Part shown: in pieces, positions 11,191 to 52,305 of the stretch | Layout of the letters: the number at the start of each line of letters is the position of its first letter | Position numbering within the stretch: position 1 is the stretch's first letter | Assembly: GCA_035691305.1 (NCBI GenBank) | Contig: DASSJF010000061.1 | Span: 65,329 to 129,328 of the forward strand | Source of the DNA: a bacterium | GTDB lineage: Bacteria > Sysuimicrobiota > Sysuimicrobiia > Sysuimicrobiales > Segetimicrobiaceae | Reading direction: 5' to 3' | DNA: 64,000 nt | Notes under the pieces: model-generated | What the model was told of the DNA's origin: nothing | Seen by the model: the letters and a program-made list of their open reading frames with translations, nothing else | The model's database searches: none | Program-made: the position numbers and the translations under genes

Positions 11191-11362
11191 GCCCGACTCC
11201 GCGGTGCGGCGGCCGTCGTCGCCGGCATTGGGGGAAGTTGGGTGGGGGATTCCGGGAGCAACGGTGCCGCCAAACTCAGAGCGCCGCCGTGCATGATCGA
11301 TTTTATGCACGAGTACGGTGGTCCTCAGACACGCCCTCGAGTATTCTTACGCGGTTGCGATT

Positions 11363-11575
11363 TTATCCGGCGGGCGCGGCGTCCGGTCCGCGCCGTTCGA
11401 ACTCCCTGATTCGCCGCTCCAATTTGGAGCGCGGCATCAGGACCTTCCGGTCGCAGCGCAGGCACCGAAGCCCGATGTCCGCGCCCAAGCGGACGATCTC
11501 CCAACGGTCCCCGCCGCAGGGATGGGCCTTGCGCGTGCGGACGATGTCGCCGAGGGCCAGTTTGAGGACCGGCAT
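11363..11575 (-). CDS. DUF951 family protein (YyzM-like)
   Basis: A 70-residue DUF951 protein. The family pattern is visible: [29 protein letters not shown] near residues 6-34, then [20 protein letters not shown]. Conserved cysteines C20, C38 and C41 and a Gly-rich turn suggest a small beta-barrel, perhaps metal-binding or RNA-binding. The function is unknown. DUF951 sits beside ychF and rpsF in many Bacillota, so it belongs to the conserved block. It begins six bases after the spermidine-synthase-like gene and is probably cotranscribed. Confidence 0.85.
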
Positions 11576-11581
11576 CGGGAC

Positions 11582-33459: not shown

Positions 33460-34203
33460 ATGCCGGCCGCGCAGATTGCCATCATCGATAGAACCGGTAC
33501 GGTGGACGTTCATCTACTGAGCGGCCTCGCCGCAGCGATCAACACTCAGGTGACGCGTGATCTGCCGAAGTTCTGGGGCATCACGGCGAAGGTGGGCTAC
33601 TTGCCGGCGACCCGTCGGGTGCCGGCGCATACGTGGCCGGTCTACTTGGTCGACGTCCTGCCACCGGGCGAGGCCCCGGGCTTTCATTTTAAGAATCGCA
33701 GACCGTTCGCGAAGGTGATGGTCATGCCCCTGAACGATCGGTGGACGATCGGGGTGAGCCACGAAATCATCGAGATGCTGGTCGATCCGAGCGGCAATCT
33801 TACGTACCCGTCACGATCGATCGAGCTGGAGGGCGGCAGGATCGTCGACGGATCCGGGATCGCCAAATATATCGTCGAGGCGTGCGACCCCTGCGAGCAT
33901 CGCAACTATTCGATCCACGGCATCACGGTCAGCGATTTCGTGACTCCGGAGTTCTACGCACCGGCGCCGGCGCCGCGGACTCGCTACAGTTTTACCGGGA
34001 CGATGCCCGCGCCGCGCAGGGTCCTTCGCCGCGGGTACATCTCATGGCAGAACGTTGAGACCGATCGGTGGCACCAGTGCCACTACCACAAGGGCGCGTC
34101 CGGACCAAACATTACCAACCTGCCAAAACTTACCGGCGGCACTCTTCGTGAGTGCGCCGATGCGGCGGCATCCAAGATTCGCGGGGAGGCCGCAGATTCA
34201 TAG
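33460..34203 (+). CDS. Zincin-like hypothetical protein with SHEIIEMLVDP motif
   Basis: A 247-residue protein without signal peptide. The central feature is VSHEIIEMLVDPSGN (H101-E102-I-I-E105), followed by E140-A-C-D-P. The pattern SHExxEMLxDP with a later E-x-x-DP occurs in an uncharacterised group of predicted zinc metalloproteins. Compared with HExxH the second His is Glu, so metal binding and protease activity are unproven. A second region, RYSFTGTMPAPRRVLRRGYI, may be a separate C-terminal subdomain. It pairs with the small basic protein upstream and overlaps the end of the convergent GNAT gene by six bases. Confidence 0.65.
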   Translation: MPAAQIAIIDRTGTVDVHLLSGLAAAINTQVTRDLPKFWGITAKVGYLPATRRVPAHTWPVYLVDVLPPGEAPGFHFKNRRPFAKVMVMPLNDRWTIGVSHEIIEMLVDPSGNLTYPSRSIELEGGRIVDGSGIAKYIVEACDPCEHRNYSIHGITVSDFVTPEFYAPAPAPRTRYSFTGTMPAPRRVLRRGYISWQNVETDRWHQCHYHKGASGPNITNLPKLTGGTLRECADAAASKIRGEAADS

Positions 34204-37892: not shown

Positions 37893-38087
37893 TTAGTGCG
37901 GAGCGGCGTCCGGACGGACGACGGTGAGTTGTGGTCGGATGAGCACCATGCGCACCGCCTCCCCCCGGAACGTTGCCGAGCAAGCATCCAGGATTATGTC
38001 ATCACGGCCTGGGGATGTCAACGTTCCGATCTGCCTCACGAGCCGGATCGCCACGCCGGGCACGACCGCCGGGGTGTTCTTGACCAT
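37893..38087 (-). CDS. Small hypothetical protein
   Basis: A 64-residue protein (MVKNTPAVVPGVAIRLVRQI then GTLTSPGRDDIILDACSA) whose ATG 38087 follows GAGG at eight bases. Beta-strand-like alternation suggests a small barrel. No homologue is recognised. It lies below the GH25 gene on the same strand with a 70-base gap, and above the ABC ATPase with 129 bases, so it may be the last gene of the GT2-GH25 transcript. Codon use is ordinary for the window. Confidence 0.5.
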   Translation of the reverse strand: MVKNTPAVVPGVAIRLVRQIGTLTSPGRDDIILDACSATFRGEAVRMVLIRPQLTVVRPDAAPH

Positions 38088-38157
38088 CCGTCGCCTCAAT
38101 CATGTTGGCGCCGGCCTGCTTCCCTGGTGAGCCGGCGGGTCCTCGGCGGCGGTTGTC

Positions 38158-38760
38158 TCAGGCCCGCCAGTGCGTCAGATCGACCGCTCCCGAAATGCCG
38201 GGGACCGTTCCGCCGAACGTATATTGCCAGCCGGTCCACCCCCCTGCCCCCCATCCGCCGATGTCGGGAGGCGTGGCCGCACCGCCCGACGCCACCGGGT
38301 AGGCGATCCAGAGGTCGTGTTGCTTGTAATTCGTCGGGTTCCCCAGCGCCTGCCACGTCGCGACGTTCGTATAGATCCGACATGGTCTCCCGACGAAACT
38401 GCCCACGATGTCGAGCCATACGTTGATCGCCGCCAGTGCATCCGCTGCCGACTGGCCCGGCGCTAATACCTCGAGATCGAGGACCGGCGGCATCCACTCC
38501 GGGTTCCACCCGGCCTGCCGGCAGAACCAATGCGCCTGCGCGTCCGGAAGATCGTTGGGCCGCCAGAAATGGTACGCGCCCGGTTGGATCCCGGCGCCGC
38601 GCGCGCCGTTCATGTGCGCGAAGTACGTTTGGTCGACCCACCGTGCGCCCTCGGTCGCTTTGCAGTAGGCTTTGGTCACGCCGAACGCTTGTATCGCCGC
38701 CCAATCGTCGGCGGGCTGATATGCTGAGACGTCGATCCCGAGCGCCAGTCCATTCGTCAT
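38158..38760 (-). CDS. GH25 (lysozyme-like) glycoside hydrolase
   Basis: A 200-residue GH25/Chalaropsis-type lysozyme domain. LALGIDVSAYQPADDW holds the N-terminal Asp D10, KAYCKATEGARW follows, then GAYHFWRP, and VLDLEV with the D95-x-E97 catalytic pair, IYTNVATWQAL, and VDLTHWRA at the end. Family enzymes cleave peptidoglycan. No signal peptide or wall-binding domain is present, as in phage endolysins that need a holin. ATG 38760 follows GGGGGA. It is cotranscribed with the GT2-like gene and lies at one edge of the unusual locus, while a holin-like gene ends the other edge. Confidence 0.87.
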   Translation of the reverse strand: MTNGLALGIDVSAYQPADDWAAIQAFGVTKAYCKATEGARWVDQTYFAHMNGARGAGIQPGAYHFWRPNDLPDAQAHWFCRQAGWNPEWMPPVLDLEVLAPGQSAADALAAINVWLDIVGSFVGRPCRIYTNVATWQALGNPTNYKQHDLWIAYPVASGGAATPPDIGGWGAGGWTGWQYTFGGTVPGISGAVDLTHWRA

Positions 38761-38811
38761 CGGGGTCCCCCTTCGGTCGCACGGTGCCAACCCGGCCGTG
38801 GGACTCGCTCT

Positions 38812-39654
38812 TTAGCGCGCGGCGGCATCCTCCACGGTGACATCGACGGCCGCCGGATCGAATCGCATCAGGACCTCGCCGGTGGGGACGTCGCCCGGCG
38901 GCGGCTGGAAGTACGGGCACACCCGGCACTGCTGAACGGACACGGCTCCGAGGCGGTGCTCTTCGAACTGATGCGGGCCGGCACACGTGTTCGTGTAGGC
39001 GGGGGCGGACCACGGGACTTTCGCCGTCGGGTGCCACGCAAAGGGGGGCTCGTGCACGAAGACACGGCCGGCGTGCCCTGCTGCGTCGGCCAAGCGGCGT
39101 CCCAGATGCTGGTCTTCGCCCGCGTGCCGTCCGCAGTAGGCGAGGTCGAAGCCGCCCGCCGCCTGGAGCATCGATTTCTCCCCGCCGAACAGCCCGCCGT
39201 AGGCACTCTGCCATCCGTGCCAGGCGTTGGGCGGGAATTCACGGGGGCGCCCCGCGGAGGCAGGCAGTTGGAGAATCTCATCGACCGGGCGGACGGCGAA
39301 ATCGAGAAACCGGTAATGTCCCCAGAAGAATGCCTGCCGCTCAAACAACCGCGCCCCGGCCTCGACCATATCCGGCGAAGCCAACTGGTCGTCATCGAAC
39401 GTGATGATGTGCGAGCAGGGCGATGCCCAGATGCCGATGTTTCGCCGCAGGGCGACGTCCATGGTCCCGATCGGATACCGCGCGCTCCGAAAGCGCACCA
39501 AGCGAACGCGTAACCCGACCGGGACAAGCGAGGGGGCCACTTCATTGCTCACGATCGTGATCAGGTCCGGCACCGCCGTCCCCCTGCCGAGGCTGTAGAG
39601 GGCGCCCCCAACGGAGTCGCGCCGCAGACTGGGGATGACCACGTCGAGTGTCAA
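38812..39654 (-). CDS. GT2-like (GT-A fold) glycosyltransferase with Cys-rich end, TTG start
   Basis: About 280 residues. It starts TLDVVIPSLRRDSVGGALYS, has the nucleotide-sugar metal motif in HIITFDDDQLASPDM (DDD, about 90-92), and acceptor-side FDLAYCGRHAGEDQHLGRRL. The end contains C-x2-C and nearby Cys/His (CAGPHQFEEHRLG, QQCRVCPYF), perhaps zinc-binding. TTG 39654 is the only ordinary start that retains the first strand. TATACT lies eight bases before it, so the mRNA may be leaderless. It diverges from a GT4-like glycosyltransferase and probably modifies the same surface product. Confidence 0.78.
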   Translation of the reverse strand: MTLDVVIPSLRRDSVGGALYSLGRGTAVPDLITIVSNEVAPSLVPVGLRVRLVRFRSARYPIGTMDVALRRNIGIWASPCSHIITFDDDQLASPDMVEAGARLFERQAFFWGHYRFLDFAVRPVDEILQLPASAGRPREFPPNAWHGWQSAYGGLFGGEKSMLQAAGGFDLAYCGRHAGEDQHLGRRLADAAGHAGRVFVHEPPFAWHPTAKVPWSAPAYTNTCAGPHQFEEHRLGAVSVQQCRVCPYFQPPPGDVPTGEVLMRFDPAAVDVTVEDAAAR

Positions 39655-39847
39655 CGCAAACGAGTATAGCAGAAGGAACTGGATGGATGAGTGAACAATT
39701 AGCAGATGAACAAACAGCACTAGAGATTTCTTACATGAATGTTTAGAGAAGTAAAGTAACAGAGAACAACTGCGGGCCTCCTCTAAACGGCGGCGCCCCT
39801 GGCCTTCGCAGACCCCACCCAGAGCCGCCGGTCGGAGGAGCGCGGTA
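39655..39847. promoter_or_regulatory. A+T-rich divergent promoter region of the accessory locus
   Basis: This gap separates two divergent glycosyltransferase genes and is far richer in A+T than its neighbours. On the minus strand TATACT (39668-39663) sits just above the TTG start. On the plus strand a -10-like TAAAGT (39752-39757) has no clear -35, and GGAGGAG precedes the GTG at 39848. No operator or repeat is recognised. Confidence 0.5.
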
Positions 39848-41689
39848 GTGCACATTCTCTGGGTTTCGGACAATCCGGATACCCCGTCCGGGTTCGGCAA
39901 CGTAACCCGGTTCGTGTGTGGTGGATTGGCCCGGCGCGGCTACCGCGTGAGCATTCTCGGATGGCAGACCAAGGCGTCGTACGATTGGAACGGCTGCCGG
40001 GTGCACCCGCCCGGCAGCGATCCGCTCGGCGGCGATGCCCTGCACTATTTGCTTATCCGGGAGCGCCCCGACGCGGTCGTCGCGCTCGGCGACGTTTGGT
40101 GGCTGCCGCAGTTCGCGTCTCCGCACCTGCGGCGGCAGATGGAACTGACCGATACGCCCTGGGTCCTGTACTTTCCCATCGACGGCGACACGGAGGGCGA
40201 TGGCCTGCCGGCGAGCTGGGTACAGCTGCTGCGCGAGGTCGACGTACCCGTCGCGATGAGCCGGTATGGCCGGCGGGTGGTCGGCCGCTACGGGATTTCC
40301 TGCGAGTACATTCCCCACGGGGTGGACCTCGAGGTGTTCAGCCCGCCGCCGAACCGCGAAGCGGCCAAGGCGAAAGTCGGCGCGCGCGGCCGGTTCGTGG
40401 TGCTGTCCGACAGCCGCAATCAGCCCCGCAAACTGCTGCCGCGCCTGCTGGATGTGTTCGCCAGGTTTGCGGCCGATCGTCCCGACGCGCTGCTGCACCT
40501 CCACACGGATCCCGACGACGAGTTTACGCGCTCCGGCATCTACGCCTACGACGTGCGCGCCGACGTCCGTCACCTCCACCTCGAGTCCCAGGTGCGCTTT
40601 ACGCCCGGATTCAAGACGGTCGCCGGAGGCGGCCTGCCCCTGCGCGACCTGGCGGCCTACTACCAGGCCGCCGACGTGCATCTGCTCGCGTCGAGCGGCG
40701 AGGGGTTCGGCCTGCCCACGCTGCAGGCGGCCGCGGCCGGCGCCGTGCCGATGGCGTGCGGTTACAGTGCGAGTCGGGAGTTGGTGGAGGGCCACGGCGA
40801 GGCTATCGCCGTCGAGGACTGGACCGAGAACGAGTTCGGCATCCGCCGCGCCTTGATCGACGTCGAAGACGCCGCGCGACGGCTTGGGCGATATTATGAC
40901 GACCGCGCCCTGATGCGGGAACGTTCGGTGGCGTCGCGGCACTTTGCGGCGGCCTACGGATGGGAGGGTGTGGTCGACAAGTGGGACGCGCTCCTGCGCT
41001 CGATAGGCAGCCGGCGGTCGCGCGTCCGGCCCGCCGCGGCACGTGCGGCGCCGATCGAGACGCTCCTCCCGCAGTTCGGCCCGCAGCTGCCCGGCGCGAG
41101 GGTATCGGTGAAGGTCGTCGAGCGCCAGTTCGGCAGGCTCGAAGCGTCGATTCTCGCCGATCTCAGAGGACGCTCGTCGGAGGTGCAGATCCCGACGCTG
41201 CCGCCGCCGTGTGATGTGGCGCGCGTCCGAGTGCCACGCCGGCCGGGATACATTGGCACGGCCGGTCCCGATCGCGGGACCCTGGACGCGCTGGCGGCGA
41301 TCTTCCCGTCGATCGAGGGCTGGTCCCCGGGCTCCCCGCCGGAAGCGTGCCGCCTCGATCTCGCCCGTTCGGTGCTGCTCTTGAACGTCGGCGGAGCGTT
41401 CGACGCCGTCTCGCTCATCGACGCGGCGCTGTACGGCGTGCCCTGCATCGGCACAGACGCGTGCCTGCCCCAGCGCATCTTGTGGCCCGAGCTGACTACC
41501 CGCGACAGGGCCGAGGCCCTGCGGTGGGCCCGCATGCTGCTGACCGACGCGGCCCGCTTCCGCCGGGCCGCCGCGTCGGCGCGCGCCGTCTGCCGCGAGC
41601 GGTACGCGCCGAGCGAAGAGGAGGCGGCCGCCTGGCTGCGCCGGCTTCACGCCGACCGGCAACGCGAGCCTGCCGCGGCGCGAGGCTGA
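39848..41689 (+). CDS. Two-part GT4-like glycosyltransferase
   Basis: A 613-residue GT-B enzyme. Residues 1-395 are a complete GT4-like transferase: MHILWVSDNPDTPSGFGNVT, SCEYIPHGVDLEVFSPPPNR, FVVLSDSRNQPRKLLPRLLD, and the donor-site SSGEGFGLPTLQAAAAGAVP. Residues about 430-613 look like a second, partial GT-B half (GYIGTAGPDRGTLDALAAIF, YGVPCIGTDACLPQRILWPE), suggesting a fusion or duplicated C-terminal domain. GTG 39848 has GGAGGAG upstream. It heads the plus-strand run to 52155, and a second GT at 50513 implies glycan decoration of the locus's proteins or of the surface. Confidence 0.86.
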   Translation: MHILWVSDNPDTPSGFGNVTRFVCGGLARRGYRVSILGWQTKASYDWNGCRVHPPGSDPLGGDALHYLLIRERPDAVVALGDVWWLPQFASPHLRRQMELTDTPWVLYFPIDGDTEGDGLPASWVQLLREVDVPVAMSRYGRRVVGRYGISCEYIPHGVDLEVFSPPPNREAAKAKVGARGRFVVLSDSRNQPRKLLPRLLDVFARFAADRPDALLHLHTDPDDEFTRSGIYAYDVRADVRHLHLESQVRFTPGFKTVAGGGLPLRDLAAYYQAADVHLLASSGEGFGLPTLQAAAAGAVPMACGYSASRELVEGHGEAIAVEDWTENEFGIRRALIDVEDAARRLGRYYDDRALMRERSVASRHFAAAYGWEGVVDKWDALLRSIGSRRSRVRPAAARAAPIETLLPQFGPQLPGARVSVKVVERQFGRLEASILADLRGRSSEVQIPTLPPPCDVARVRVPRRPGYIGTAGPDRGTLDALAAIFPSIEGWSPGSPPEACRLDLARSVLLLNVGGAFDAVSLIDAALYGVPCIGTDACLPQRILWPELTTRDRAEALRWARMLLTDAARFRRAAASARAVCRERYAPSEEEAAAWLRRLHADRQREPAAARG

Positions 41690-41695
41690 TCCGGG

Positions 41696-41983
41696 ATGGA
41701 CGTGCAGATGTACATCGTTGCGTTCAAGGACGAGGCCACCGGCGAGGCGGCGCGGGCCATCGAGGAGCAGGTCCGGCAATGTGGCGGGTTCATTCTCATG
41801 GCGACGCGGAGCGGTCCGCTGGTATTGCTGCCGCCCGCTGCGGTCGCCGTGGTCGCCAAGCATCCTCGGGTGGGGTTCGTCGGCGGTGTGACGCTGGATC
41901 CGTCCGGGTTCGCCGCGCAACAGCTGCAGCGCGTGTTTCTTGAGAATCTCACAAGACAGTTGCAGACGCCGAAGACCGGGTAG
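41696..41983 (+). CDS. Inhibitor I9/propeptide-like small protein
   Basis: A 95-residue protein whose layout resembles the subtilisin propeptide/inhibitor I9 ferredoxin-like fold: MYIVAFKDEATGEAARAIEE, QVRQCGGFILMATRSGPLVL, LPPAAVAVVAKHPRVGFVGG. I9 domains fold or inhibit S8 proteases, but no subtilase is in the window. It may be a free-standing assembly chaperone or inhibitor. The ATG at 41696 is six bases beyond the glycosyltransferase stop, and the next gene starts 37 bases later, so it is in the same transcript. Confidence 0.65.
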   Translation: MDVQMYIVAFKDEATGEAARAIEEQVRQCGGFILMATRSGPLVLLPPAAVAVVAKHPRVGFVGGVTLDPSGFAAQQLQRVFLENLTRQLQTPKTG

Positions 41984-42019
41984 GGCGAGTCAACACCGTA
42001 CTCCAAGGGAGGGGTTGCC

Positions 42020-42613
42020 GTGCCGGATGTTGGCCAGGAACTACTCAATGTCCCATTCCCGAAGATGATCTTCGACATGGCGATGGCCATCGCCAAGGGA
42101 CAGATGGCGCTCGACAAGGCCTCGGTGCAGACGCTCATGGTCCTGGCCAAGACGTCGTTCAACTGGGTGCCGGAGATCACCGAGGTGCTCCAGCCGTTCC
42201 CGTTCACGCCAAAGGGCACGAGCATCGAGGTGACCGGTGTCCGGCCGACGACGACCGTCTCGGATCCGGTCTCGCTGACGCTGCTCCAGGCCGGCATCAC
42301 CCCGACCTTTTATCAGTTCACCGAGTCGATCATCGAGGTAAAGATGTCCATCTCGAGCAAGACGGAGGAGTCGAGCTCGCTCGACGTCGGCGTCGACGTG
42401 AGCGCCTCCGCGAACTTCCTGTTCGGCTCGGCCACGGTATCCTCGCACGTCAACTACTCCACGGCAAGCAAGTACTCGTACTCGGTCGACGGGTCGAGCC
42501 TGCTGCGCACGACCCTCAAGCCGGTGCCGCCGCCCAAGCGGATCATGCCGCGATTCATCCTGGTGAACGCGGTCGATCCGAGCAAGGTCACCGTCACCAC
42601 CAGCGACACGTAG
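42020..42613 (+). CDS. TFYQFTE-family protein 1 (unknown function)
   Basis: A 197-residue protein without signal peptide or membrane helix. It shares with the next gene the order: short helical N-terminus (FDMAMAIAKGQMALDKASVQ), proline-bearing strand (VTGVRPTTTVSDPVSL), TLLQAGITPTFYQFTESIIE, Ser-rich beta region (VSSHVNYSTASKYSYSVDGS) and an end with PVPPPKR. The sequence suggests a mostly beta protein with a helical hairpin. No family is recognised. GTG 42020 follows AAGGGAGGGG. It and the following two proteins appear to be related. Confidence 0.7.
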   Translation: MPDVGQELLNVPFPKMIFDMAMAIAKGQMALDKASVQTLMVLAKTSFNWVPEITEVLQPFPFTPKGTSIEVTGVRPTTTVSDPVSLTLLQAGITPTFYQFTESIIEVKMSISSKTEESSSLDVGVDVSASANFLFGSATVSSHVNYSTASKYSYSVDGSSLLRTTLKPVPPPKRIMPRFILVNAVDPSKVTVTTSDT

Positions 42614-42625
42614 ACGGAGGGCGTG

Positions 42626-43213
42626 ATGCCGTTCACGCGCGTCGGCAACGAACTGCAGGAGGCGGGTTTCGGGGAGATCGTGCGCAGCATCGCCCAAGGG
42701 ATCGCGGACGGGCAGCGCGCGCTCGACCTGGCGTCCATCAACACCCTCGTGGTCCTGTCGAACACGATGGTGGACGTGATCCCGGAGATCGCGGAGGTGT
42801 TGACGCCGGCCGGCGTCAACGTAAATGTGTCCGGAGCCGGCGGCCCGCGGTCGGTGCAGGTGACCGGCGTGCGGGTGTCTGGCGTCCCGTCTCCGACCGT
42901 CAAGCTGACCGCGCTGCAGGCCGGCATCGTGCCCACGTTCTATCAATTCACCGAGGCCACGATCGACCTCAAGCTGTCGATTCAGCTGCGCGAGGGCGAC
43001 CAGACCGATACCGACGGCAGCACCCAGTCGGGCATCTTCGCCTTCGCCTCACACGTCAACTTCCGGACGCAGAACACGTACTCGTACGCGGTGGACGCGT
43101 CCTCCAGCGTGCACGTGGTGATGCGGCCGGTGCCGCCGCCGAGGCCGACGGTGCCTACGACCGTCACGATCAACGCGCTGGGATCGACGCCGAAGGTCGT
43201 CGAGGGACCCTAG
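42626..43213 (+). CDS. TFYQFTE-family protein 2 (paralogue)
   Basis: A 195-residue paralogue of the preceding protein: ASINTLVVLSNTMVDVIPEI matches ASVQTLMVLAKTSFNWVPEI there, and ALQAGIVPTFYQFTEATIDL matches its central motif. FASHVNFRTQNTYSYAVDAS and RPVPPPRP are also shared. The two clearly arose by tandem duplication and have diverged. No signal peptide or membrane helix is present. The frame starts at GTG 42623 or ATG 42626, with GGAGGG upstream. A structural, oligomeric role is inferred from the repeats and tandem paralogy only. Confidence 0.7.
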   Translation: MPFTRVGNELQEAGFGEIVRSIAQGIADGQRALDLASINTLVVLSNTMVDVIPEIAEVLTPAGVNVNVSGAGGPRSVQVTGVRVSGVPSPTVKLTALQAGIVPTFYQFTEATIDLKLSIQLREGDQTDTDGSTQSGIFAFASHVNFRTQNTYSYAVDASSSVHVVMRPVPPPRPTVPTTVTINALGSTPKVVEGP

Positions 43214-43235
43214 GCCGCGGGGGTGAGGTGACGCC

Positions 43236-43898
43236 ATGGCAGACGACCCGCTGGCGAACGCGGTCGAGACATTCTCCGCGCCGATCGAATCGCTCATCAT
43301 CGCGCTCGGCCAGGGCATCGCCCAGGCGCAGCAGGCGATGGATCAGAACTCGATTCAGCAGCAGGAGGCGATCGACAGCAACCCCGTGCTGGCGCAGCGC
43401 GGGCTGCAGGCGACGTGGTATCAGATGCCGCGCGTCGACCTTCAGTTGAAGCTGTCATTGACGATCGCCCAGGATCAACCGTCGGGGGGAGGCGGGCCGG
43501 CACCGCCGCTTCGGATGCGGCTCGTGGCGCAGCCGATCAGCGCATCGTTTCAGACGCACTTCAGCTACGACGCGCAGGCCGCGAGTCAGGTCACCCTCTC
43601 GATCGTGCCGGTGCCGCAGCCCCAGGCCGGCGCACCGCCGAGAATGGCGGCCGCCGACGTGCAGGCGGCCGCCCTGGGCACCGCGGCGGCGAAGTTCCTG
43701 ACGGTTATGGTAGCGGGCCGGCTTGCGCCGGCCCCCACCGACGCCCAGAGCAACGTCCTGCGCTTCGACGTCAACTTCAACTCGGCGTCCCGCACCTGGT
43801 ACGCCCTGCAGTACGCGCCGGCCAACCCGGCGGTGAAGCCCACCGCGGTTGCGGTGGACGACGCGACCGGCGCCGTCCGCGTCATCAGCGGAGGCTGA
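43236..43898 (+). CDS. TFYQFTE-related protein 3
   Basis: A 220-residue protein that keeps part of the layout of its two upstream neighbours: N-terminal helix (IESLIIALGQGIAQAQQAMD), GLQATWYQMPRVDLQLKLSL in place of AGITPTFYQFTE, FQTHFSYDAQAASQVTLSIV with PVPQPQAG in place of the PVPPP end. It then adds 85 residues, including LRFDVNFNSASRTWYALQYA, absent from the others. It is probably a third, more diverged family member. No signal peptide is present. ATG 43236 begins 22 bases after the preceding stop. Confidence 0.65.
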   Translation: MADDPLANAVETFSAPIESLIIALGQGIAQAQQAMDQNSIQQQEAIDSNPVLAQRGLQATWYQMPRVDLQLKLSLTIAQDQPSGGGGPAPPLRMRLVAQPISASFQTHFSYDAQAASQVTLSIVPVPQPQAGAPPRMAAADVQAAALGTAAAKFLTVMVAGRLAPAPTDAQSNVLRFDVNFNSASRTWYALQYAPANPAVKPTAVAVDDATGAVRVISGG

Positions 43899-43903
43899 GG
43901 CCC

Positions 43904-44662
43904 ATGCCAGCGATGTTCAGCGCCGGAGGCTTTCGGGCGGTCGACATCCAGCGGGTCATGGGCGATCTGCAAAAGGCCAACGTCCCGGCCGGCACGCTCA
44001 ACGATCTGCAAACCCACATTACGCAGCAGGACACTCAGATCAACCAGCTTACCCAGCAGACCAACGACCTCAAGACCCAGGCTGCCAATCTGACCACCGC
44101 CAACACCGGCCTAACCCAGCAGGTCGCGACACAGGACGCCCAGATCACCCAGCTCAAGTCCCAGCTCGCGGCCGCGACCGCGGCGCAGCCGCAGCAGGTC
44201 GCACCGCTCGACCTGGCGATGTCCCTCAAGAGCGTGGTCGACAAGGTTCAGGCGGCGGCGCGGCAGGGGACCGGCGTGCAGGCGACTCTGTCGAAGATGG
44301 ACATCGAAGTCAAGACCCTGATCAACGTTACGCCGAGCAACGAAGCCGTGCTCGTCATCCCGGATCCGAAGGCCCTCCCCGATCCCGCCCACCTCTCGAC
44401 CATGACCCTCTCCTTCGGAGCGATTCCGAAGCTCACGAGCCCGCCTCCGCCGCCCGCTGTTCAGCCGGCGGGTGGCGGGACGCCGCCCGCCGGCCGGGGC
44501 GGCCCACAGCCCGCGGGGCCCACCGGCCCGGCGCAGCCCAGCGCGGGGCCCGGTGGACGCGGTCCAGCGCGCCCGGAGCCGAAGCGGCCGGCGTCGGGCC
44601 TGCAGCGGTTCCTCAATGCGCTCGAGGCCCTCGGCGAGCGCCGGCGCGGATCGGCGTCTTAG
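43904..44662 (+). CDS. Coiled-coil protein with Pro/Gly-rich tail
   Basis: A 252-residue protein. Residues 20-85 are a Gln/Asn/Thr-rich heptad coiled coil (THITQQDTQINQLTQQTNDL then KTQAANLTTANTGLTQQVAT), resembling phage fibre or trimeric-adhesin stalks. Residues 95-175 include VTPSNEAVLVIPDPKALPDP, a short beta-like domain. The last 75 residues are Pro/Gly/Arg-rich and disordered. No signal peptide is present. It begins five bases after the preceding gene, so it is in the same operon. A rod-like or assembly role is inferred. Confidence 0.65.
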   Translation: MPAMFSAGGFRAVDIQRVMGDLQKANVPAGTLNDLQTHITQQDTQINQLTQQTNDLKTQAANLTTANTGLTQQVATQDAQITQLKSQLAAATAAQPQQVAPLDLAMSLKSVVDKVQAAARQGTGVQATLSKMDIEVKTLINVTPSNEAVLVIPDPKALPDPAHLSTMTLSFGAIPKLTSPPPPPAVQPAGGGTPPAGRGGPQPAGPTGPAQPSAGPGGRGPARPEPKRPASGLQRFLNALEALGERRRGSAS

Positions 44663-44698
44663 GTCGTCGCCGGAACCGGTCTTAATCGAGATCCCCGG

Positions 44699-45583
44699 GT
44701 GATCGAGCCGATGCCCCTTATTACCAACAGCATCGACGAAGCACGGCTCGCCTACACGGCGCTGGAAGGTCGCGCCGTGTCCGCCGAACAGCGCGCGGAT
44801 GCTCTTCAGACGACCGTCGAGCGGCTCCAGGCCGCGCAGCCGATCCTGGCCGAGGTCGCCGACCGGCTTTCGCAGCGTACGGTGGACCAGGAAGCCGTGA
44901 ACGCGCAACTGAGAGCACAGCAGGCGGGGCAGGTGAGCCCGGATACGCCGCTCGACCATTTCATCGCGTCGTTCGGTTTGGCCGCGGCCCTCGGCGAGGC
45001 CACCATGGCGGACCGCGCGGTGGCATCGGTCGCGGCGACGGTGCAGGGTTATTTCGTCGCGCCGGCGGCCGCCTCGGCGGCACCGGCACTGCGGTTCTAT
45101 CAGCCCGAGTTCGGCGCGCCCGGCACCGCGGGATCGGCGTCGTTTCAGATCACGAAGACGCCGCCCGCGGCCGGTGTCGCAGCGCCGCGCACCCTGTACA
45201 CGGTGCTGCGGGACAAGCAGGCGATGTTCGACGATCCGTACTGGGTCCGCTTCGTAACGGCCGCCGTACCCCCGTCGCAGCCCGCGCGGTCGCTCGTCGT
45301 GGAGATCGCCAAGGTGCTGGCCGCCGCGGCCGCGTGGGATTTTGTGTTTCTGGTGCAGGGTGCAGCGGCGATCGCCGCGCTCGAAACGGCGCTCGCGGCG
45401 CTCGTGGCGGGTGCGGTTCCGTCGCCGCGGGCGGCGTCCTACGCGGCCGCGGCGGCGGCGCTCGCGGCGCTCGTGGCCGCCCTCGCACCGAACGTCAAGA
45501 CCGCGCCGGTCGCGGGCGACGTGTATGCACTCGCCGCCGCACTGGACGCCACGACCGGCATCGCCGGGACGCTTCGTTCGTGA
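44699..45583 (+). CDS. Ala-rich helical protein of unknown function
   Basis: A 294-residue protein. A helical N-terminus (EARLAYTALEGRAVSAEQRA; about 10-85, coiled-coil-like) precedes a region with RFYQPEFGAPGTAGSASFQI. The last 100 residues are extremely Ala-rich (AKVLAAAAAWDFVFLVQGAA) with possible membrane-compatible helices. No family is recognised. GTG 44699 or ATG 44711 could be the start. Its stop overlaps the next gene's GTG, implying coupling. The Ala-rich part may be a helical bundle rather than a membrane domain. Confidence 0.6.
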   Translation: MIEPMPLITNSIDEARLAYTALEGRAVSAEQRADALQTTVERLQAAQPILAEVADRLSQRTVDQEAVNAQLRAQQAGQVSPDTPLDHFIASFGLAAALGEATMADRAVASVAATVQGYFVAPAAASAAPALRFYQPEFGAPGTAGSASFQITKTPPAAGVAAPRTLYTVLRDKQAMFDDPYWVRFVTAAVPPSQPARSLVVEIAKVLAAAAAWDFVFLVQGAAAIAALETALAALVAGAVPSPRAASYAAAAAALAALVAALAPNVKTAPVAGDVYALAAALDATTGIAGTLRS

Positions 45584-47478
45584 AGACGGCGGAGCGCCGG
45601 CAGGCCGAGCGCCTGGCGGGGCGACATCGCGAGTTCTTGGACCGGCTCGCGGCCGAGCGGGCCCTTCGTGCGCAAGCCGAGGCGCGCGAGCGCGAGGCGC
45701 GTGAAGCGAGACTGGCCGAGTTGCGTGAGCAGAAGCGCCGGGAGCGGCAGGCGGAACTCCTCCGGAATGCGCAATTCGAACGCGAACGGGCGGAGCGTGT
45801 CGCGGAGGCGCGCGCCGCGCGCGTCAGGACAGAGCGGGCGGCCACCCGGCCTGTCGCCGAGAAATCGGTCCGCGAGCGCCCATTGCCGCGCGCGGCCGCG
45901 GCGATCGAGCAGCCGCGAGTCCGCGCCGCCGCGCGGGCGCGTCGGTCAAGGATCGCGCTCTCAACGGCCCGCCCACCGGTTCCGCGCGTCTACCGCTTGA
46001 CCCGCCCCTCTAAGGGCCTGCGCGCCGCCGGGGCCGTCCGACCGACGGCTCCCGGAGGACGCGTTGCGGGGCCGGCGCAGGCGCCGCAGAATCGAAAGCC
46101 GCGCGCTCTCGAACGCCCGGTCAAGCCGCGGGCAGCGGGCCGCCGCCCTGTCCGGGCCGGCGCGTCCCATGTACGCCCCCCGCGCCCCAAGGTGGCCTCG
46201 CCGCGCGGCGCGCGGCGCGCTTACCGGATCGCGAGGCTCGCCGTCGGCGGGCGTCTCGTGGTGCGCCGGCCGCCCCGGAAGGTCCGGGTTCCGGCTTCAG
46301 CGTCCGCGCCCGGGCCGCTCGTGTCGTTGACGAAGCAGACGGCGCAACAGCGCGCACGACGACAGGCTCAGCAACCGCCGGCTCAGCCCCGGAAGCCGCA
46401 GCGTCAGGCAGTGCCGGCCGCGAAGGCAGAGCGCCGTGTTGTCGTTGCGCCACCGGTGCGCCAACTCTACGCGCTTGCGAAACCATCGGCACCGCCGCCC
46501 GCGCCCCCCGCCGCGGCCAAAGCTTCGACCGCGCCGGCGGCTCCCGTGCCCGAGTCATCCGATGCGATCCGCTGGCTTCGCACGCACGACGGCTACGTGG
46601 TGGACGGTAACGGGCGGGGCGTGGTCTTTCGCGGCGTGACCGTCGGCGGTCTCGACGTGGTGGCGCCAACTGCCGATCAGACCGTCGCGGACGCGCTCGG
46701 CCTGAACGACGCCGGCCTCTCTACGATCGTCGATCTCTGGGAGTTGAACGTGATCCGGGTGCCGTTTCAGGCACAAACCGTGCTCGCCGGCAACGGCGCG
46801 CTGTCAAACACCGACGTCTTGACGGGACTGGACAACCTCATCGAAGCTGTGTCCGACGCCGGCGCGTACGTCATGCTCAGCCAGCGGGCGCCCCAAGGTG
46901 TCGCGCTGCCGGACGGGCCGGTCTTCGAAGCATGGGACACGGTGGCGACCCGCTATGCGGACGAGCCGGCCGTTCTCTTCGAACCGTTCGCGTCGGAGTC
47001 CCCGCTCGACGGCAACTGGCTCGACGCCGCCCTCCCGCTCGTCGGTCTCATTCGCTCGCAGCATCCGGGGTCGCTGCTCTTCGTCGGAAACGGCACCGGT
47101 CGCGCGGACCTCGACGGCCTTCCGCTCAGGTTCTCCACCGGCGATCCGGCGCCCAACGTCGTGTACACCATCGCCGTCGATCCGGCGCATCCACCCAACG
47201 GTGCGGATGCGCGGCTTGCCGAGTGGACGGACTCGTTCCCCCTGGTGGCCTGCCCGTGGTCGAACGGCGGCCCGCCCTTTGCCCGCGCGTCCGAACTCGC
47301 CGCGGATTTCTTCAGCCGGTACGGTCTGGGCTGGATCGCCAGCAGCTGGAACGTGGCGCCGCGGCTCGTCGTGGACGCCGCGGGCGGCGACTTGACTCCC
47401 ACGGCGTGGGGCCTTACGGTCCGGCGCGCGGTGGCGCTTCCGACGCGCCCCCAATACGGACGGATTCTTTCAGGTTAG
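45580..47478 (+). CDS. Arg-rich N-terminus plus degenerate GH5-like domain
   Basis: About 632 residues. Residues 1-90 form a very charged coiled coil (ERRQAERLAGRHREFLDRLA), residues 90-320 are Arg/Ala/Pro-rich and disordered, and residues about 325-632 resemble a GH5 cellulase-like TIM barrel: WLRTHDGYVVDGNGRGVVFR, LNVIRVPFQAQTVLAG, ALPLVGLIRSQHPGSLLFVG. The expected acid/base NEP is ASESP (E473), and the expected nucleophile strand reads LVACPWSNGGPP with no Glu, so catalysis is doubtful. No signal peptide is present. GTG 45580 overlaps the previous stop (GTGA). A cargo or surface-binding role is possible. Confidence 0.7.
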   Translation: MKTAERRQAERLAGRHREFLDRLAAERALRAQAEAREREAREARLAELREQKRRERQAELLRNAQFERERAERVAEARAARVRTERAATRPVAEKSVRERPLPRAAAAIEQPRVRAAARARRSRIALSTARPPVPRVYRLTRPSKGLRAAGAVRPTAPGGRVAGPAQAPQNRKPRALERPVKPRAAGRRPVRAGASHVRPPRPKVASPRGARRAYRIARLAVGGRLVVRRPPRKVRVPASASAPGPLVSLTKQTAQQRARRQAQQPPAQPRKPQRQAVPAAKAERRVVVAPPVRQLYALAKPSAPPPAPPAAAKASTAPAAPVPESSDAIRWLRTHDGYVVDGNGRGVVFRGVTVGGLDVVAPTADQTVADALGLNDAGLSTIVDLWELNVIRVPFQAQTVLAGNGALSNTDVLTGLDNLIEAVSDAGAYVMLSQRAPQGVALPDGPVFEAWDTVATRYADEPAVLFEPFASESPLDGNWLDAALPLVGLIRSQHPGSLLFVGNGTGRADLDGLPLRFSTGDPAPNVVYTIAVDPAHPPNGADARLAEWTDSFPLVACPWSNGGPPFARASELAADFFSRYGLGWIASSWNVAPRLVVDAAGGDLTPTAWGLTVRRAVALPTRPQYGRILSG

Positions 47479-47515
47479 CCGCAGTACACCGTCTTCGAAG
47501 AACGGAGGGATTCGG

Positions 47516-50482
47516 ATGGCGGACGACCGAGAGGCTCGGGCCCGCGCCACCGCCGCCGGTGGGCGGCAGGAGCAGCGTGACGACCCGCGGGGGCGCGAGA
47601 AGTGGTTTCGTCACAGCCGCCAGCGGAAGGACGGCCGGCTGGAGCCCGGCCTGATCGGCAGAGCGACCGCGCAGAAGCGCAGACGGGAACGCGAGCTGCG
47701 GCGCCGCCGGGGTTTGCCTCTTCCGCCGGCTCCCGGCGCACCCGGCGGACTGCCCCCGGCGCCTCCCGGCGGGCCGGGCACGGTCAACTGGTCGTCGCTT
47801 GGCCCCGACGGAGTCGCCCACGGGATGGCCGGGGCGGCGTTCCCGATCGTGAGCGGCCGCATTACCGCCATCGCGGTCGGCCCGGGCGGGCAGCGGGTGT
47901 ACGCCGGCGCCGCGAACGGCGGCGTCTGGTTCTCGGGGGACGGCGGGACCACGTGGACGTCGCTCGACGAGTGGGCGATGTCTCCGTCCGCCGTGCTCAA
48001 GATTCCGCCCGGCAGCGATGCCGATGCGCTGTCGGTCGGCGCGATCGCGGTTCGGTTCGGGGGCCCCGCGTCGTCCAGCAGCGCCGGCGATTCCAGCAGT
48101 TCGTCCGATTCCAGCTCCTCCGACTCCAGCAGCTCGTCGGATTCGAGCGGGGCGACGTCCGCGGATATCATCTATGTCGGCACGGGCGAGCCCAACCACA
48201 ACATCGACGGGTACTTCGGCGTCGGCATCAAGGTTTCGACGGACGGCGGCAGCACGTTCACCCTTGAAGGCACCAACCTCTCCGGTAGCGACGTGCATAC
48301 GATCGTCATTGATCCCGTCGATCCGACGATCGTCTTCGCCGCGACGACCAGCGGGATCTATCGGCGGCCCGCCGGTCCGGATTTCAGTAATTGGCCCCAG
48401 GTCACCGACCCGACGGGATCGTCCGGCGAAGTCACCGATTTGGCTGTCGGCGGATCAGGCGCGGGTAGGACGTATTACGCGGCCTCGGGATCGGGCGTCT
48501 ATCAAAGCACCGACATTTTCACAAAGGACCCGAGCAGCGTGACCTGGAGCGCGGTGCCGGGGGTGACGAACAATCGCCGCAAGGCGCTCGGTGTCGGCGA
48601 GAACGACAAATCGGTAGTGTACTGCCTCGCCGCCGACGCCACGCTGTATCGTCTCGATAGCGGGACGGGCGGAGCGTTTCAGACCGTGAGCGGCGTTCCG
48701 AAGGCGGTCTTCGCGGGTCGAGGCGGCGGACAGGGCTGGTACGATCTCGCAGTCGCCGCCGACCCCGCGGACGCCGACACGGTGTATTTGATGGGCGACC
48801 TGACCTCCGACAGCGGCTGGGCGCTTGCCTTCTTCAAGGGCAAGATCACCGTCCAATCGGGCGTGTACACGTTCCCGTTCAACAGCGCCAACGACATGAC
48901 GGTGACTGCCGACGGTAATACAAATTCATCGACCGTGCCGAACGATCCGACGTGGATCGGCCGGGGTATCCACCCCGACGGGCATTACCTGGCGTTTGCT
49001 ACCAACGCAGACGGCTCCCACGACGGCAGCATCGTGTGGGTGGGATGCGACGGCGGCGTGTTCCGATCCACCTCCAGCGGTACGCGGGGGACGTTCGACT
49101 CAAGGAATCAGGGCCTCGGCATCACGCAGTTCAACTATCTGTCCGTCCTGCCGGGCGCGCCCGACAAAGTCTACGGCGGCTGTCAGGACAACGGGACTCT
49201 GCGGTACAGTGCCGGGGCGACCCCGCCGTGGTACCAGTCGGGAGGAGGCGACGGCGGCGGTGTGGCGATCAATCCCCGGAACTCCTCGCAGATCGTCCGG
49301 CAGTACATCTACGCGTCGCTCGAAAGCACCTCGGACGACGGCGCCAACTGGGGCTCCGCGGGCCTGCCGGTCAACGCGACGGAGAGCGGGACGGCCGCCT
49401 TCTACGCTCCCGTCAAGGCATACGACACCGGCAGCAAGACGCTCGTGGCCTTCGGCACGAACCGTCTGTGGTTTCGGACGGACTGGAGCGATTCTTGGGT
49501 CACACTGCCGACGGGCACTAATCCGTACCAAGGGGGCGCAGCCAACCTCACGCAGGACGTGCTCGACGCAACCAATGGGGCACCTGTCAGGGCAATCGCG
49601 TTCGGCTCCGACACGATGATCCTGGCCGCCACCAGCGGATCGGGAGCGACGGGCGCGGTGTGCCGCTTCGATCAGGCGGGAGGAAAGTGGACCCAGACGG
49701 CGTTGCCCGCGATTCCCACGCCGCCGGCGCCCGGGTTCATTTTCGTGACGGGCCTGGCGGTGGAAGATCCGGCGAAGGGCAGCTTCTACGCGTCGCTCGG
49801 CAGTAGCGGCGGCGAGCACGTCCTGTACTACGATGGGACGAAGTGGCAGAGCGCCGGCCTTGCGGCGGCCACTCTCGACGCGCCGGCGCAGGCCATCGTG
49901 CTCGACTCCGGAGACACGAACACCGTCTTTCTCGGCACCGACGTCGGCGTGTGGAAGGGCGTGAAGAGCGGCGGCGCATGGACCTGGGATCCCTTCTCAC
50001 AAGGGCTTCCGGAATCGGCCGTCACGGACCTGGCCGTTCTGACATCGTCCCGCAAATTGCGGGCGGCGACGCACGGACGCGGCGTCTGGGAGATCGACCT
50101 CGGCCCGGCGGCGTCCAGCTCCTCGTCGGCCGACTCGAGCAGCTCATCCTCGGACTCGAGCAGTTCGTCCGGCGACGGGGGCTCGAGCTCATCGTCCGAT
50201 TCCAGCAGCTCTTCAGGCGACGGCGGCTCCAGTTCGTCGGCGGATTCCAGCTCGTCGAGCGACGATTCGAGTTCTTCGGCCGATTCGAGCAGTTCATCCT
50301 CGGACTCGAGCAGCTCGTCCGGCGACGACGGCTCGAGCTCATCGTCCGATTCCGGCAGCTCTTCGGGCGACGGCGATTCCAGTAGCTCTTCGGACTCCGG
50401 CCGTACCGGCCGCGCGGGGTCGGCGGGCACGCGCTCCACGGGGACGCGCGGCGGGTCGCGCAAGCCGCGGACCACGCGGTGA
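47516..50482 (+). CDS. BNR/sortilin-like beta-propeller with Ser/Asp-rich spacers
   Basis: A 988-residue protein. Residues 1-75 are highly basic (GRATAQKRRRERELRRRRGL). Residues 95-860 are a BNR/VPS10-like propeller (GGVWFSGDGGTTWTSL, KVSTDGGSTFTLEGTNLSGS). A Ser/Asp-rich spacer (SSSSDSSSSDSSSSSDSSGA, about 190-215) interrupts it, and residues about 870-965 are a long S/D/G repeat, followed by an Arg-rich end. No signal peptide or LPXTG is present. The propeller lacks clear sialidase residues, so binding is likelier than hydrolysis. ATG 47516 has GGAGGG upstream. Confidence 0.8.
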   Translation: MADDREARARATAAGGRQEQRDDPRGREKWFRHSRQRKDGRLEPGLIGRATAQKRRRERELRRRRGLPLPPAPGAPGGLPPAPPGGPGTVNWSSLGPDGVAHGMAGAAFPIVSGRITAIAVGPGGQRVYAGAANGGVWFSGDGGTTWTSLDEWAMSPSAVLKIPPGSDADALSVGAIAVRFGGPASSSSAGDSSSSSDSSSSDSSSSSDSSGATSADIIYVGTGEPNHNIDGYFGVGIKVSTDGGSTFTLEGTNLSGSDVHTIVIDPVDPTIVFAATTSGIYRRPAGPDFSNWPQVTDPTGSSGEVTDLAVGGSGAGRTYYAASGSGVYQSTDIFTKDPSSVTWSAVPGVTNNRRKALGVGENDKSVVYCLAADATLYRLDSGTGGAFQTVSGVPKAVFAGRGGGQGWYDLAVAADPADADTVYLMGDLTSDSGWALAFFKGKITVQSGVYTFPFNSANDMTVTADGNTNSSTVPNDPTWIGRGIHPDGHYLAFATNADGSHDGSIVWVGCDGGVFRSTSSGTRGTFDSRNQGLGITQFNYLSVLPGAPDKVYGGCQDNGTLRYSAGATPPWYQSGGGDGGGVAINPRNSSQIVRQYIYASLESTSDDGANWGSAGLPVNATESGTAAFYAPVKAYDTGSKTLVAFGTNRLWFRTDWSDSWVTLPTGTNPYQGGAANLTQDVLDATNGAPVRAIAFGSDTMILAATSGSGATGAVCRFDQAGGKWTQTALPAIPTPPAPGFIFVTGLAVEDPAKGSFYASLGSSGGEHVLYYDGTKWQSAGLAAATLDAPAQAIVLDSGDTNTVFLGTDVGVWKGVKSGGAWTWDPFSQGLPESAVTDLAVLTSSRKLRAATHGRGVWEIDLGPAASSSSSADSSSSSSDSSSSSGDGGSSSSSDSSSSSGDGGSSSSADSSSSSDDSSSSADSSSSSSDSSSSSGDDGSSSSSDSGSSSGDGDSSSSSDSGRTGRAGSAGTRSTGTRGGSRKPRTTR
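50110..50400 (+). repeat. Degenerate DNA repeat encoding the Ser/Asp/Gly tract
   Basis: About 290 bases of imperfect tandem units of the type TCGTCCGGCGACGG and TCGAGCAGCTCATCC encode repeated SSSSDS, SGDGGS and SSADSS. The tract is within the propeller gene and probably varies in length between strains. A shorter related tract lies at 48070-48160. Confidence 0.8.
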
Positions 50483-50512
50483 GCCGCCCGGGCGCGCACG
50501 GACGGTGAGACG

Positions 50513-51526
50513 ATGGCGCGGCAGGTTTGGGTGGCGGGGTTCCCATCGTTTTACGGCGGGGCCGATACGGAACTGGACCACTTGATCGACCTCTTTCGAG
50601 CGTGCGGCGTCGGGGTCAACCTCGTACCGATGTTTGGGTGCGACGAGCGGATGAGGAAGACCGTGCTCGAGCGCGGCTGCCGGGTCCTCGACTACCGGGA
50701 CGACGTCTTCGGCGACAAGATCGTCGTCAGCCTCTGCAACGGCCAGTTTCTCGCCAAACTGCCCGCCATCATGGCCGCCGCCCGCCCGGGCAAGGTGATT
50801 TGGTTCAACTGCATGACGTACCTGTTCGATAGAGAACGCGCGGCCCACGCCCGGGGATGGATCGACGTCTTCGGCTTCCAAAGCGCCTACCAGCGGAGCT
50901 GTCTGCTGCCTCAGCTCGAGACCATTCGGCCGGTGCAGACGTTCCCGTACCGCCCGTACTTCAACGCGGAGCGCATCGAATGGCGGTACCGGAAGTGGGA
51001 GGGAACTTACAGGGTCGGCCGCATTTCGCGGGACGACCAGGCTAAGTTCGCCCCGGACACGTGGCGGATCTTCGAGCGGGTCCTCGTGCCGCCGCGACTC
51101 AAGAAGAAGGTGTACATTCTCGGCTACGGTTCCAACGCCGCGAAGAAGATCGGACCCGCTCCGCCGACGCTCGACTGGATGACGTGGAACGGGAACGCCA
51201 TCCCCGCCACGCAATTCTATCGAACTATCGACACGATGATCCACAAGACCGGCGGGTCGCGCGAAAACTATCCCCGCGTGCTGCTGGAAGCCTACGCCCA
51301 CGGGGTGGTGCCCATCGTCGAGCGAGCATACGCCTTTCCCGAACTGGTCAAGCACGAAGAAACCGGATTTATGGCCGACAGTTCCGACGAGATGAGCTAC
51401 TACGCGAGTTTTCTTGCCATGAATCCCGCCGTCCACCGGCGCGCCGCGGAAGCCGGACGGCGTCATCTCGAAGACGTCCTGACGGACGTCCAGGCCAGTT
51501 GGCGCGCGTGGCGGCAAATCCTGTGA
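50513..51526 (+). CDS. GT4-like glycosyltransferase
   Basis: A 337-residue GT-B-like transferase. It begins RQVWVAGFPSFYGGADTELD, has VSLCNGQFLAKLPAIMAAAR, and the donor half shows the conserved ENYPRVLLEAYAHGVVPIVE and AYAFPELVKHEETGFMA. The donor and acceptor are unknown. It is the second GT-B enzyme in this plus-strand run (first at 39848), bracketing the unknown proteins. Glycosylation of the Ser/Thr-rich proteins or a surface polymer is a reasonable inference. The start ATG 50513 is 30 bases beyond the propeller stop. Confidence 0.83.
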   Translation: MARQVWVAGFPSFYGGADTELDHLIDLFRACGVGVNLVPMFGCDERMRKTVLERGCRVLDYRDDVFGDKIVVSLCNGQFLAKLPAIMAAARPGKVIWFNCMTYLFDRERAAHARGWIDVFGFQSAYQRSCLLPQLETIRPVQTFPYRPYFNAERIEWRYRKWEGTYRVGRISRDDQAKFAPDTWRIFERVLVPPRLKKKVYILGYGSNAAKKIGPAPPTLDWMTWNGNAIPATQFYRTIDTMIHKTGGSRENYPRVLLEAYAHGVVPIVERAYAFPELVKHEETGFMADSSDEMSYYASFLAMNPAVHRRAAEAGRRHLEDVLTDVQASWRAWRQIL

Positions 51527-51567
51527 TGCTCGCACTCAATTTGCCGGCGCGCGCAAGGGGGTGTCGC

Positions 51568-51774
51568 ATGGACTGGATCGAGCGGTTGTTTCGCCTAAGT
51601 CCGGACGGTGGTCGCGGTACACTCGAGGCCGGCATCGCCACCGGCGCGGCGGCGGCCGCGGTGATGATCGCGGTCTCCGCTTTGGGTGCGGCCCGGTTGG
51701 CGACGAAATGGCTTCGGGCGATGCGGGGCGCGCGTGTGGTTGCGCGGCCGCCGGTCGAACCCGTGAGCCGGTAG
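51568..51774 (+). CDS. Small single-pass membrane protein
   Basis: A 68-residue protein with one helix (EAGIATGAAAAAVMIAVSAL, about 20-42) flanked by a positively charged cytosolic end (LATKWLRAMRGARVVARPPV). No family is recognised. ATG 51568 follows AAGGGGG and starts 41 bases after the glycosyltransferase stop. With the next gene it makes a pair of small membrane proteins at the end of the locus, as spanin or holin partners often do, but no lipobox is present. Confidence 0.65.
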   Translation: MDWIERLFRLSPDGGRGTLEAGIATGAAAAAVMIAVSALGAARLATKWLRAMRGARVVARPPVEPVSR

Positions 51775-51837
51775 CGCCGCGGCCGCGGCGCAGGTCACGT
51801 CCACCCGCCGTCATCGAGGGGCCGAGGGGGGAATGGG

Positions 51838-52155
51838 ATGGATCTGGTCATCGCGGGATTGCTCGCCAAGTACCTCACCGACGCTGTCAAGTGGCTCGGC
51901 GACAAAGGAAATCTTGAGATCCCGACCATCGCGAAGAAGATCGTCGCCCTTATCTTGTCCGCGCTCACGACGTACGTCGCGAGATTGCATCTGCCGATCG
52001 ACCTGGGGCCGACGATCCAATCGCTCCAGCCAGCCTTGACGAGCGTGATCGTGACGGGGCTCTCGTTCGCGCTGCACGACCTCCTGGACTGGCTGGCGAT
52101 TGTAGCGGGCAACCTGCAGGCCAAGTCGACCGCGACGCCTCAAAAGACGGGCTAG
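51838..52155 (+). CDS. Holin-like small membrane protein
   Basis: A 105-residue protein with two predicted helices (IAKKIVALILSALTTYVARL, about 31-50, and LTSVIVTGLSFALHDLLDWL, about 67-86), an amphipathic N-terminal helix (LVIAGLLAKYLTDAVKWLGD) and a short charged tail. The size and layout resemble phage holins, though no holin family is confidently identified. ATG 51838 has GAGGGGGGAATGG upstream. It is the last gene of the plus-strand run, and the GH25 lysozyme at 38158 could be its enzyme partner. Confidence 0.6.
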   Translation: MDLVIAGLLAKYLTDAVKWLGDKGNLEIPTIAKKIVALILSALTTYVARLHLPIDLGPTIQSLQPALTSVIVTGLSFALHDLLDWLAIVAGNLQAKSTATPQKTG

Positions 52156-52305
52156 GTGCCCGGCGGAAGCGGGTGTGGATGCGGACCCGGCGGAGTATCC
52201 GCCCGCTCGAGGAATGCCGGGCCGAAAGGTCTCTGAAACCGGAGGAATGCTCCTGGCACAACGGGAGCTGTCCTGCGGTGGGGGGCGTGTCCTCGGCCTT
52301 TTCCG

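Follow-up and report, generated by a model that had tools for sequence, protein, structure and literature searches.

A conserved, undescribed gene cassette at the center of a lineage-specific bacterial genomic island

The window considered in this work, a 64,000-nucleotide stretch of bacterial DNA, contains an accessory genomic island, and at the center of that island lies a small group of genes that stays together in both Bacteria and Archaea. At the level of sequence, the conservation of a real, undescribed cassette inside a lineage-specific island is strongly shown; the cassette is undescribed as judged by profile libraries and open-access papers. On these comparisons, the heart of the cassette is a small protein (S), three ancient paralogues (T1, T2 and T3) and a coiled-coil protein (CC), which take the following positions in the window:

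41696..41983, plus strand: g4 (S), core; small protein with a subtilisin-prodomain (I9) fold
42020..42613, plus strand: g5 (T1), core; helix and ~30-residue beta-hairpin with the aromatic tip NFLFGSA
42623..43213, plus strand: g6 (T2), core; paralogue with a shorter hairpin
43236..43898, plus strand: g7 (T3), core; third paralogue, with a C-terminal extension
43904..44662, plus strand: g8 (CC), core; coiled coil, conserved beta domain (ALP..LSTMTLSF) and Pro/Gly-rich tail

The spread of the cassette was followed by searching for T relatives in one genome per species, across 84,980 species; 139 relatives were found, from which 78 distinct loci were kept. These public genome loci cover 14 named phyla of Bacteria and Archaea, and the cassette is also present on a Sphaerotilus plasmid. 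Among the 45 loci that have enough flanking sequence, at least two T genes are present in all 45, a count that holds by construction because T genes were used to retrieve the loci; a CC-domain gene and S, whose counts are not set in this way, are found in 41 and 40 loci, and S, at least two T genes and CC occur together in 39. Every S match lies within 6 kb of a T gene, and a single locus holds all T matches in each of the 17 genomes tested. The gene order is conserved in the loci that were read closely, except that S comes last rather than first in the Methanosarcina-type loci. It should be pointed out that the greedy ORF calling took antisense ORFs in GC-rich loci, and some genes are missing from the gene maps. 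The search of gene neighborhoods proposed in the initial annotation thus finds the central genes staying together elsewhere as an undescribed unit, and no family in Pfam, NCBIfam, PHROG or PADLOC describes the core.

Two settings of the cassette stand out in these loci. The Sphaerotilus plasmid keeps the order of window positions 41696-44662 in five adjacent genes, encoding the small protein, T1, T2, a third gene product and the coiled coil. Simple blastp finds nothing between the coiled-coil proteins of the window and of Sphaerotilus, nor between the 43236 protein and the fourth Sphaerotilus gene; the homology of the CC proteins could be detected only with an iterated domain HMM. This plasmid cassette, from Sphaerotilus sulfidivorans (L004, 14640-17419), sits among unrelated metabolic genes, a location that fits mobility. 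In five Methanosarcina-type loci (L025, L027, L028, L030 and L045), the cassette keeps the same relative place, 2.5-4 kb upstream of the gene for ribosomal protein L3, so it is probably inherited vertically in these genomes. In one archaeal family, 19 of the 61 genomes sampled have T genes.

The island around the cassette was delimited by comparison with close relatives of the window genome:

37964..52305, no strand assigned: island, from the last conserved base on the ABC-transporter side to the EamA transporter gene

In a genome of the same genus (G002), both flanks are syntenic with the window, with the ABC transporter and FTR1-side genes on one side and EamA and glycine dehydrogenase on the other, most of the proteins being 60-90% identical; the ~14-kb block itself is replaced by ~1.7 kb that holds two unrelated genes, one of them for a C92-type papain-like protein. 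Because the flanks are collinear around only ~1.7 kb in this relative, 37964-52305 is to be read as one inserted or replaced segment, and by this comparison the block occupies a variable slot as an accessory genomic island, with a conserved protein system at its center. The open reading frames of the initial annotation were confirmed in place, and the boundaries it had chosen coincide with this one slot; its two minus-strand genes stand, while the plus-strand genes number twelve rather than eleven. T1 has no counterpart in 11 related genomes (two of the same genus and nine of the same family). At the island edges there are neither tRNA genes nor direct repeats, and no integrase was found. A second genome of the same genus (G001) carries a remnant in which a GH25 gene, 80% identical at the protein level, is followed directly by a GT-B fragment with 57% identity over 28 residues; the remnant lies near a transposase-like ORF, named by eye. 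An ancestor therefore carried GH25 next to GT-B, and the element is decaying. The signal-less enzymes encoded in the slot from the ABC ATPase gene to EamA (window 37964-52305; L092 5201-6910; L093 5276-6268) differ from relative to relative: G002 has C92-type papain-like and C39-like (by eye) genes there, and G001 a calcineurin-like phosphoesterase gene adjoining EamA.

The three T proteins form one family, as had been proposed from a shared TFYQFTE motif: T1 and T2 are 43% identical, and T3 joins them by HMM (E 7e-30). In the tree, the window-type T1, T2 and T3 fall into separate multi-phylum clades (SH-aLRT 93-100), and the archaeal and bacterial T3-type proteins form one group with a support of 100; the separate clades indicate that the paralogues split before they spread. 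The AlphaFold model of T1 (75 natural sequences; pLDDT 85, pTM 0.60) consists of a 32-residue helix and strands of ~30 residues that make a long hairpin; the hairpins of T2 and T3 are shorter. Apolar and polar residues alternate along the hairpins (mean z 2.8, with 78% over 2), and an uncharged aromatic tip is present in 66 of 79 unique sequences, as compared to 23 expected and a maximum of 32 in the shuffles. Alternation and tip are compatible with an amphipathic membrane hairpin, though not specific to it. A Foldseek search of the PDB gave no significant structural match for T1, the best having E 0.58; the weak matches at or above this value include the stems of the pore-forming proteins PA, CDTb and lysenin and the flagellar L-ring, and should be read with the caveat that long hairpins match one another by shape alone. 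One viral Foldseek match, the unnamed protein A0A516MP19, has E 0.0011 and TM 0.33. The resemblance of T1 to the beta-pore-forming proteins would lie in the predicted long amphipathic hairpin with its aromatic tip; T1 differs in having no significant fold match to them and no export signal. The nearest family by sequence is DUF2589 (Pfam PF11655), a family of unknown function, which weakly matches two of 75 T proteins (best E 2.7e-4) below its curated cut-off, and gives no match to the window T1-T3 or to most T members; like the T genes, DUF2589-related genes can stand in tandem, as in Archaeoglobus (PMC3949148). In the loci L072 and L074 (Croceibacterium and Olleya), an OmpA domain is inserted in T proteins and each locus has five T genes.

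S has no HMM match. Its AlphaFold model has the beta-alpha-beta-beta-alpha-beta order of the prodomain fold, and its top PDB match by Foldseek is the prosegment of subtilisin BPN' (E 0.003, probability 1.00, TM 0.72 on the target); the I9-like reading of the 41696 protein is thereby borne out. S shares this fold with the I9/subtilisin prodomains but differs from them in being a stand-alone protein or, in L005 and L006, fused to GT-B, and in having no partner subtilase in cis: a motif scan of all loci found only one subtilase-like ORF near T genes. For the 43904 protein, whose coiled coil was confirmed, the conserved part is the C-terminal domain, which 69 of 80 loci have close to T and which scores 1.8e-17 in the window protein. 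By hhalign (98%), this domain and the third gene of compact cassettes are homologous. The T proteins compared by hhalign with that third gene give a weak match, 18%, yet in register, and compared with the CC domain no significant one (2%). The archaeal CC proteins carry PASTA and helix-hairpin-helix domains. Matches of CC to phage scaffold or tape-measure models and to PADLOC models were set aside as generic coiled-coil similarity. By a crude hydropathy scan, most T, S and CC proteins are without an obvious signal or membrane segment, and nearly all are without obvious membrane spans, so the early statement that signal peptides are not apparent holds for most of the core.

In several phyla the cassette occurs in an extended form, with a GT-B enzyme and a charged-tailed GH5-like protein. 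The window genes that belong here are the following:

39848..41689, plus strand: g3, GT-B glycosyltransferase common to several extended cassettes (Pfam GT4; PHROG glycosyltransferase, 5e-34)
44699..45583, plus strand: g9, Ala-rich; positional counterpart of the second CC-domain-like proteins of L005, L006, L008 and L038 (similarity by eye)
45580..47478, plus strand: g10, charged Arg/Glu-rich N-terminal region and GH5-like domain, also in extended cassettes

The loci L005 and L006 (Syntrophobacterales and a MAG) and L008 (Anaerolinea) all have GT-B (E 3e-138 to 5e-153), S, T1-T3, the coiled coil and a GH5-like protein whose long N-terminal region is charged; most of the extended genes also occur in L010 and L038, but no glycosyltransferase is seen there within the available sequence. 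In L008, a glycosyltransferase-methyltransferase-like ORF (by eye; 10707-12029) lies between T1 and the GH5-like gene. The counterparts of g9 in L008 and L006 match the CC domain HMM; phmmer with g9 itself finds no counterparts. The GH5 domain of g10 is found by Pfam (E 1.2e-9), but the catalytic NEP of GH5 glycoside hydrolases is missing, the acid/base motif being replaced by FAS; the early GH5-like label is upheld for the domain. NEP is also missing from the GH5-like proteins of L008, L010 and L038, and is retained in a different GH5 of L005 and L006. The charged fraction over 60 residues reaches 0.53-0.72 for GH5-like proteins of the window type and 0.52 for g11, the BNR protein listed below, against a background with a median of 0.35 and a 95th percentile of 0.50; it is lower, 0.28-0.37, in three Burkholderiales/Acetobacteraceae counterparts, and not above background in the client-like neighbors of L014, L022 and L007. 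In Bacillota and Bacteroidota loci (L056, L064, L077, L079 and L074), highly charged low-complexity proteins follow the cassette, with TPR proteins in several, and these may correspond to the charged tails of g10 and g11.

The remaining genes of the island lie at its periphery:

38158..38760, minus strand: g1, GH25 lysozyme/endolysin-like (Pfam E 1e-31, whole domain above cut-off; no signal peptide seen)
38812..39600, minus strand: g2, putative GT-A/GT2-like protein (start uncertain; DDD motif by eye)
47516..50482, plus strand: g11, charged N-terminus, BNR-type propeller and Ser/Asp linkers
50513..51526, plus strand: g12, GT-B glycosyltransferase with Pfam support
51568..51774, plus strand: g13, small protein with one hydrophobic stretch
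51838..52155, plus strand: g14, small hydrophobic protein, holin-like by size and hydropathy only

The initial annotation fares unevenly here. Its GH25 and its two GT-B enzymes are upheld by the profile matches in the lists above, and the BNR propeller only in part, by a partial NCBIfam glycosylhydrolase match (1.5e-15). The GT2-like label of the 38812 protein has no HMM behind it (no Pfam match at E 0.1 and no PHROG family), nor does the holin label at 51838 (no Pfam, PHROG or NCBIfam match). No other cassette was found to have the GH25, the 38812 protein, the BNR protein, the second glycosyltransferase or the two small membrane proteins within 10 kb. GH25 occurs in none of the 12 tested genomes with a window-type cassette, only two of which give weak matches to the second glycosyltransferase, and the holin-like ORF has no counterpart among 46 related genomes; the proposed holin/lysozyme pair is thus not supported as part of the conserved unit. 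The two genes lie at opposite ends of the island and on opposite strands, unlike a lysis cassette. With a degraded GH25 beside GT-B in G001, GH25 is an old resident of the island, outside the conserved machinery.

What the cassette does can be proposed only tentatively, and this holds as well for the glycosylated surface structure or release unit suggested in the initial annotation. The reading that we favor is that T1-T3 and CC form a single co-assembling complex that acts on membranes; it draws on the predicted hairpin structure, the alternation and the aromatic tips, the shape and tip of the hairpin being what suggests a membrane-acting assembly. In this model, the four proteins would join into one hetero-oligomer through packed helices and hairpins, S would serve as an assembly chaperone or cap, by analogy with I9 prodomains on subtilases, and the assembly would work on a membrane or inside it, probably the cytoplasmic one, which all carriers have. 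A point against membrane action is that amphipathic hairpins occur in soluble filaments and tail tubes too. In extended loci, the clients would be the GH5-like and BNR proteins, possibly with their charged N-terminal tails as loading tags; the glycosyltransferases may modify these clients, and GH25 with the small membrane protein could release material in the window lineage only. These ideas on clients, glycosylation and release are more speculative than the core complex. Taken as a whole, a machine of Bacteria and Archaea in which three hairpin paralogues, a coiled-coil partner and an I9-fold chaperone build a membrane-active ring or tube in the cytoplasm, and in extended loci carry or display charged-tailed carbohydrate-binding clients, is a doubtful proposition. 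Since the genes are kept together in at least 14 phyla and both prokaryotic domains, and go unrecognized by the four profile libraries, a general role is likely. The carriers include cultivated strains of Methanosarcina, Halorubrum, Sphaerotilus and Xenophilus, which makes deletion and imaging feasible.

The same long helix and hairpin geometry, with a coiled-coil partner and no export signals, would also suit a soluble cytoplasmic rod, tube or shell that is loaded or decorated with the GH5-like and BNR proteins through their charged tails, and that in this lineage leaves the cell as a non-phage particle by lysis or a type-10-like route, with GH25 and the holin-like protein as the release genes. 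We consider this rather unlikely. Holin/endolysin release of large proteins is described (PMC9527704, PMC10847048), and the island resembles type 10 release in that large signal-less proteins lie between a signal-less GH25, which also lies beside GT-B in G001, and a small hydrophobic protein. The island genes differ, however, in that GH25 is not conserved with the window-type cassettes, the holin is putative and without HMM support, and the two are far from adjacent.

Also unlikely is a scaffold, in the cytoplasm or associated with a membrane, whose role would lie in housekeeping or stress (in the envelope, storage or metabolic organization) and have nothing to do with release. It would account for the fixed, probably vertically inherited place upstream of L3 and for the PASTA and helix-hairpin-helix domains of archaeal CC, and it agrees with the up-regulation on lactate of the tandem DUF2589-related genes AF0414-AF0417 of Archaeoglobus (PMC3949148); the patchiness, both in the archaeal family and among the 11 window relatives, and the variable slot fit an accessory function better. 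These last features, with the occurrence of the cassette once per genome, could instead point to a defense or conflict system with the hairpin proteins as its membrane-acting effector, and a weak likeness of the glycosyltransferase to PF20706 'GT4-conflict' goes in the same direction. This is quite improbable: PADLOC gives no defense model match, only generic coiled-coil hits and a weak match of 50 residues of T2 to Cas2a (E 0.002), the window cassette is without a recognized nuclease, NTPase switch, caspase or TIR gene, and just one subtilase-like gene lies near T genes. Very weak matches of four T members to Trypco2 (best E 0.028) would also favor it, but this link was dropped as too weak.

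A degraded prophage or phage tail relic, which the initial annotation already held to be unsupported, is very improbable and was rejected: GH25 and GT-B match phage PHROG families and models of phage scaffold and tape-measure proteins give the coiled coil weak scores, but no T relative turned up among 50,697 phage records or in a pattern scan of 2.9 million viral contigs (IMG/VR), PHROG and Pfam find no terminase, portal, capsid, sheath, tube or baseplate among the island genes, the core has no phage structural match beyond generic coiled coils, the cassette is conserved in archaea, and the edges are without tRNA or repeat. Pfam and PHROGs likewise gave no contractile-system or S-layer match. 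Outside the island, at 33460-34203 of the window, a 247-residue protein has a metal-binding-like HEIIEML motif and no convincing family match; it is found at the same position in G002.
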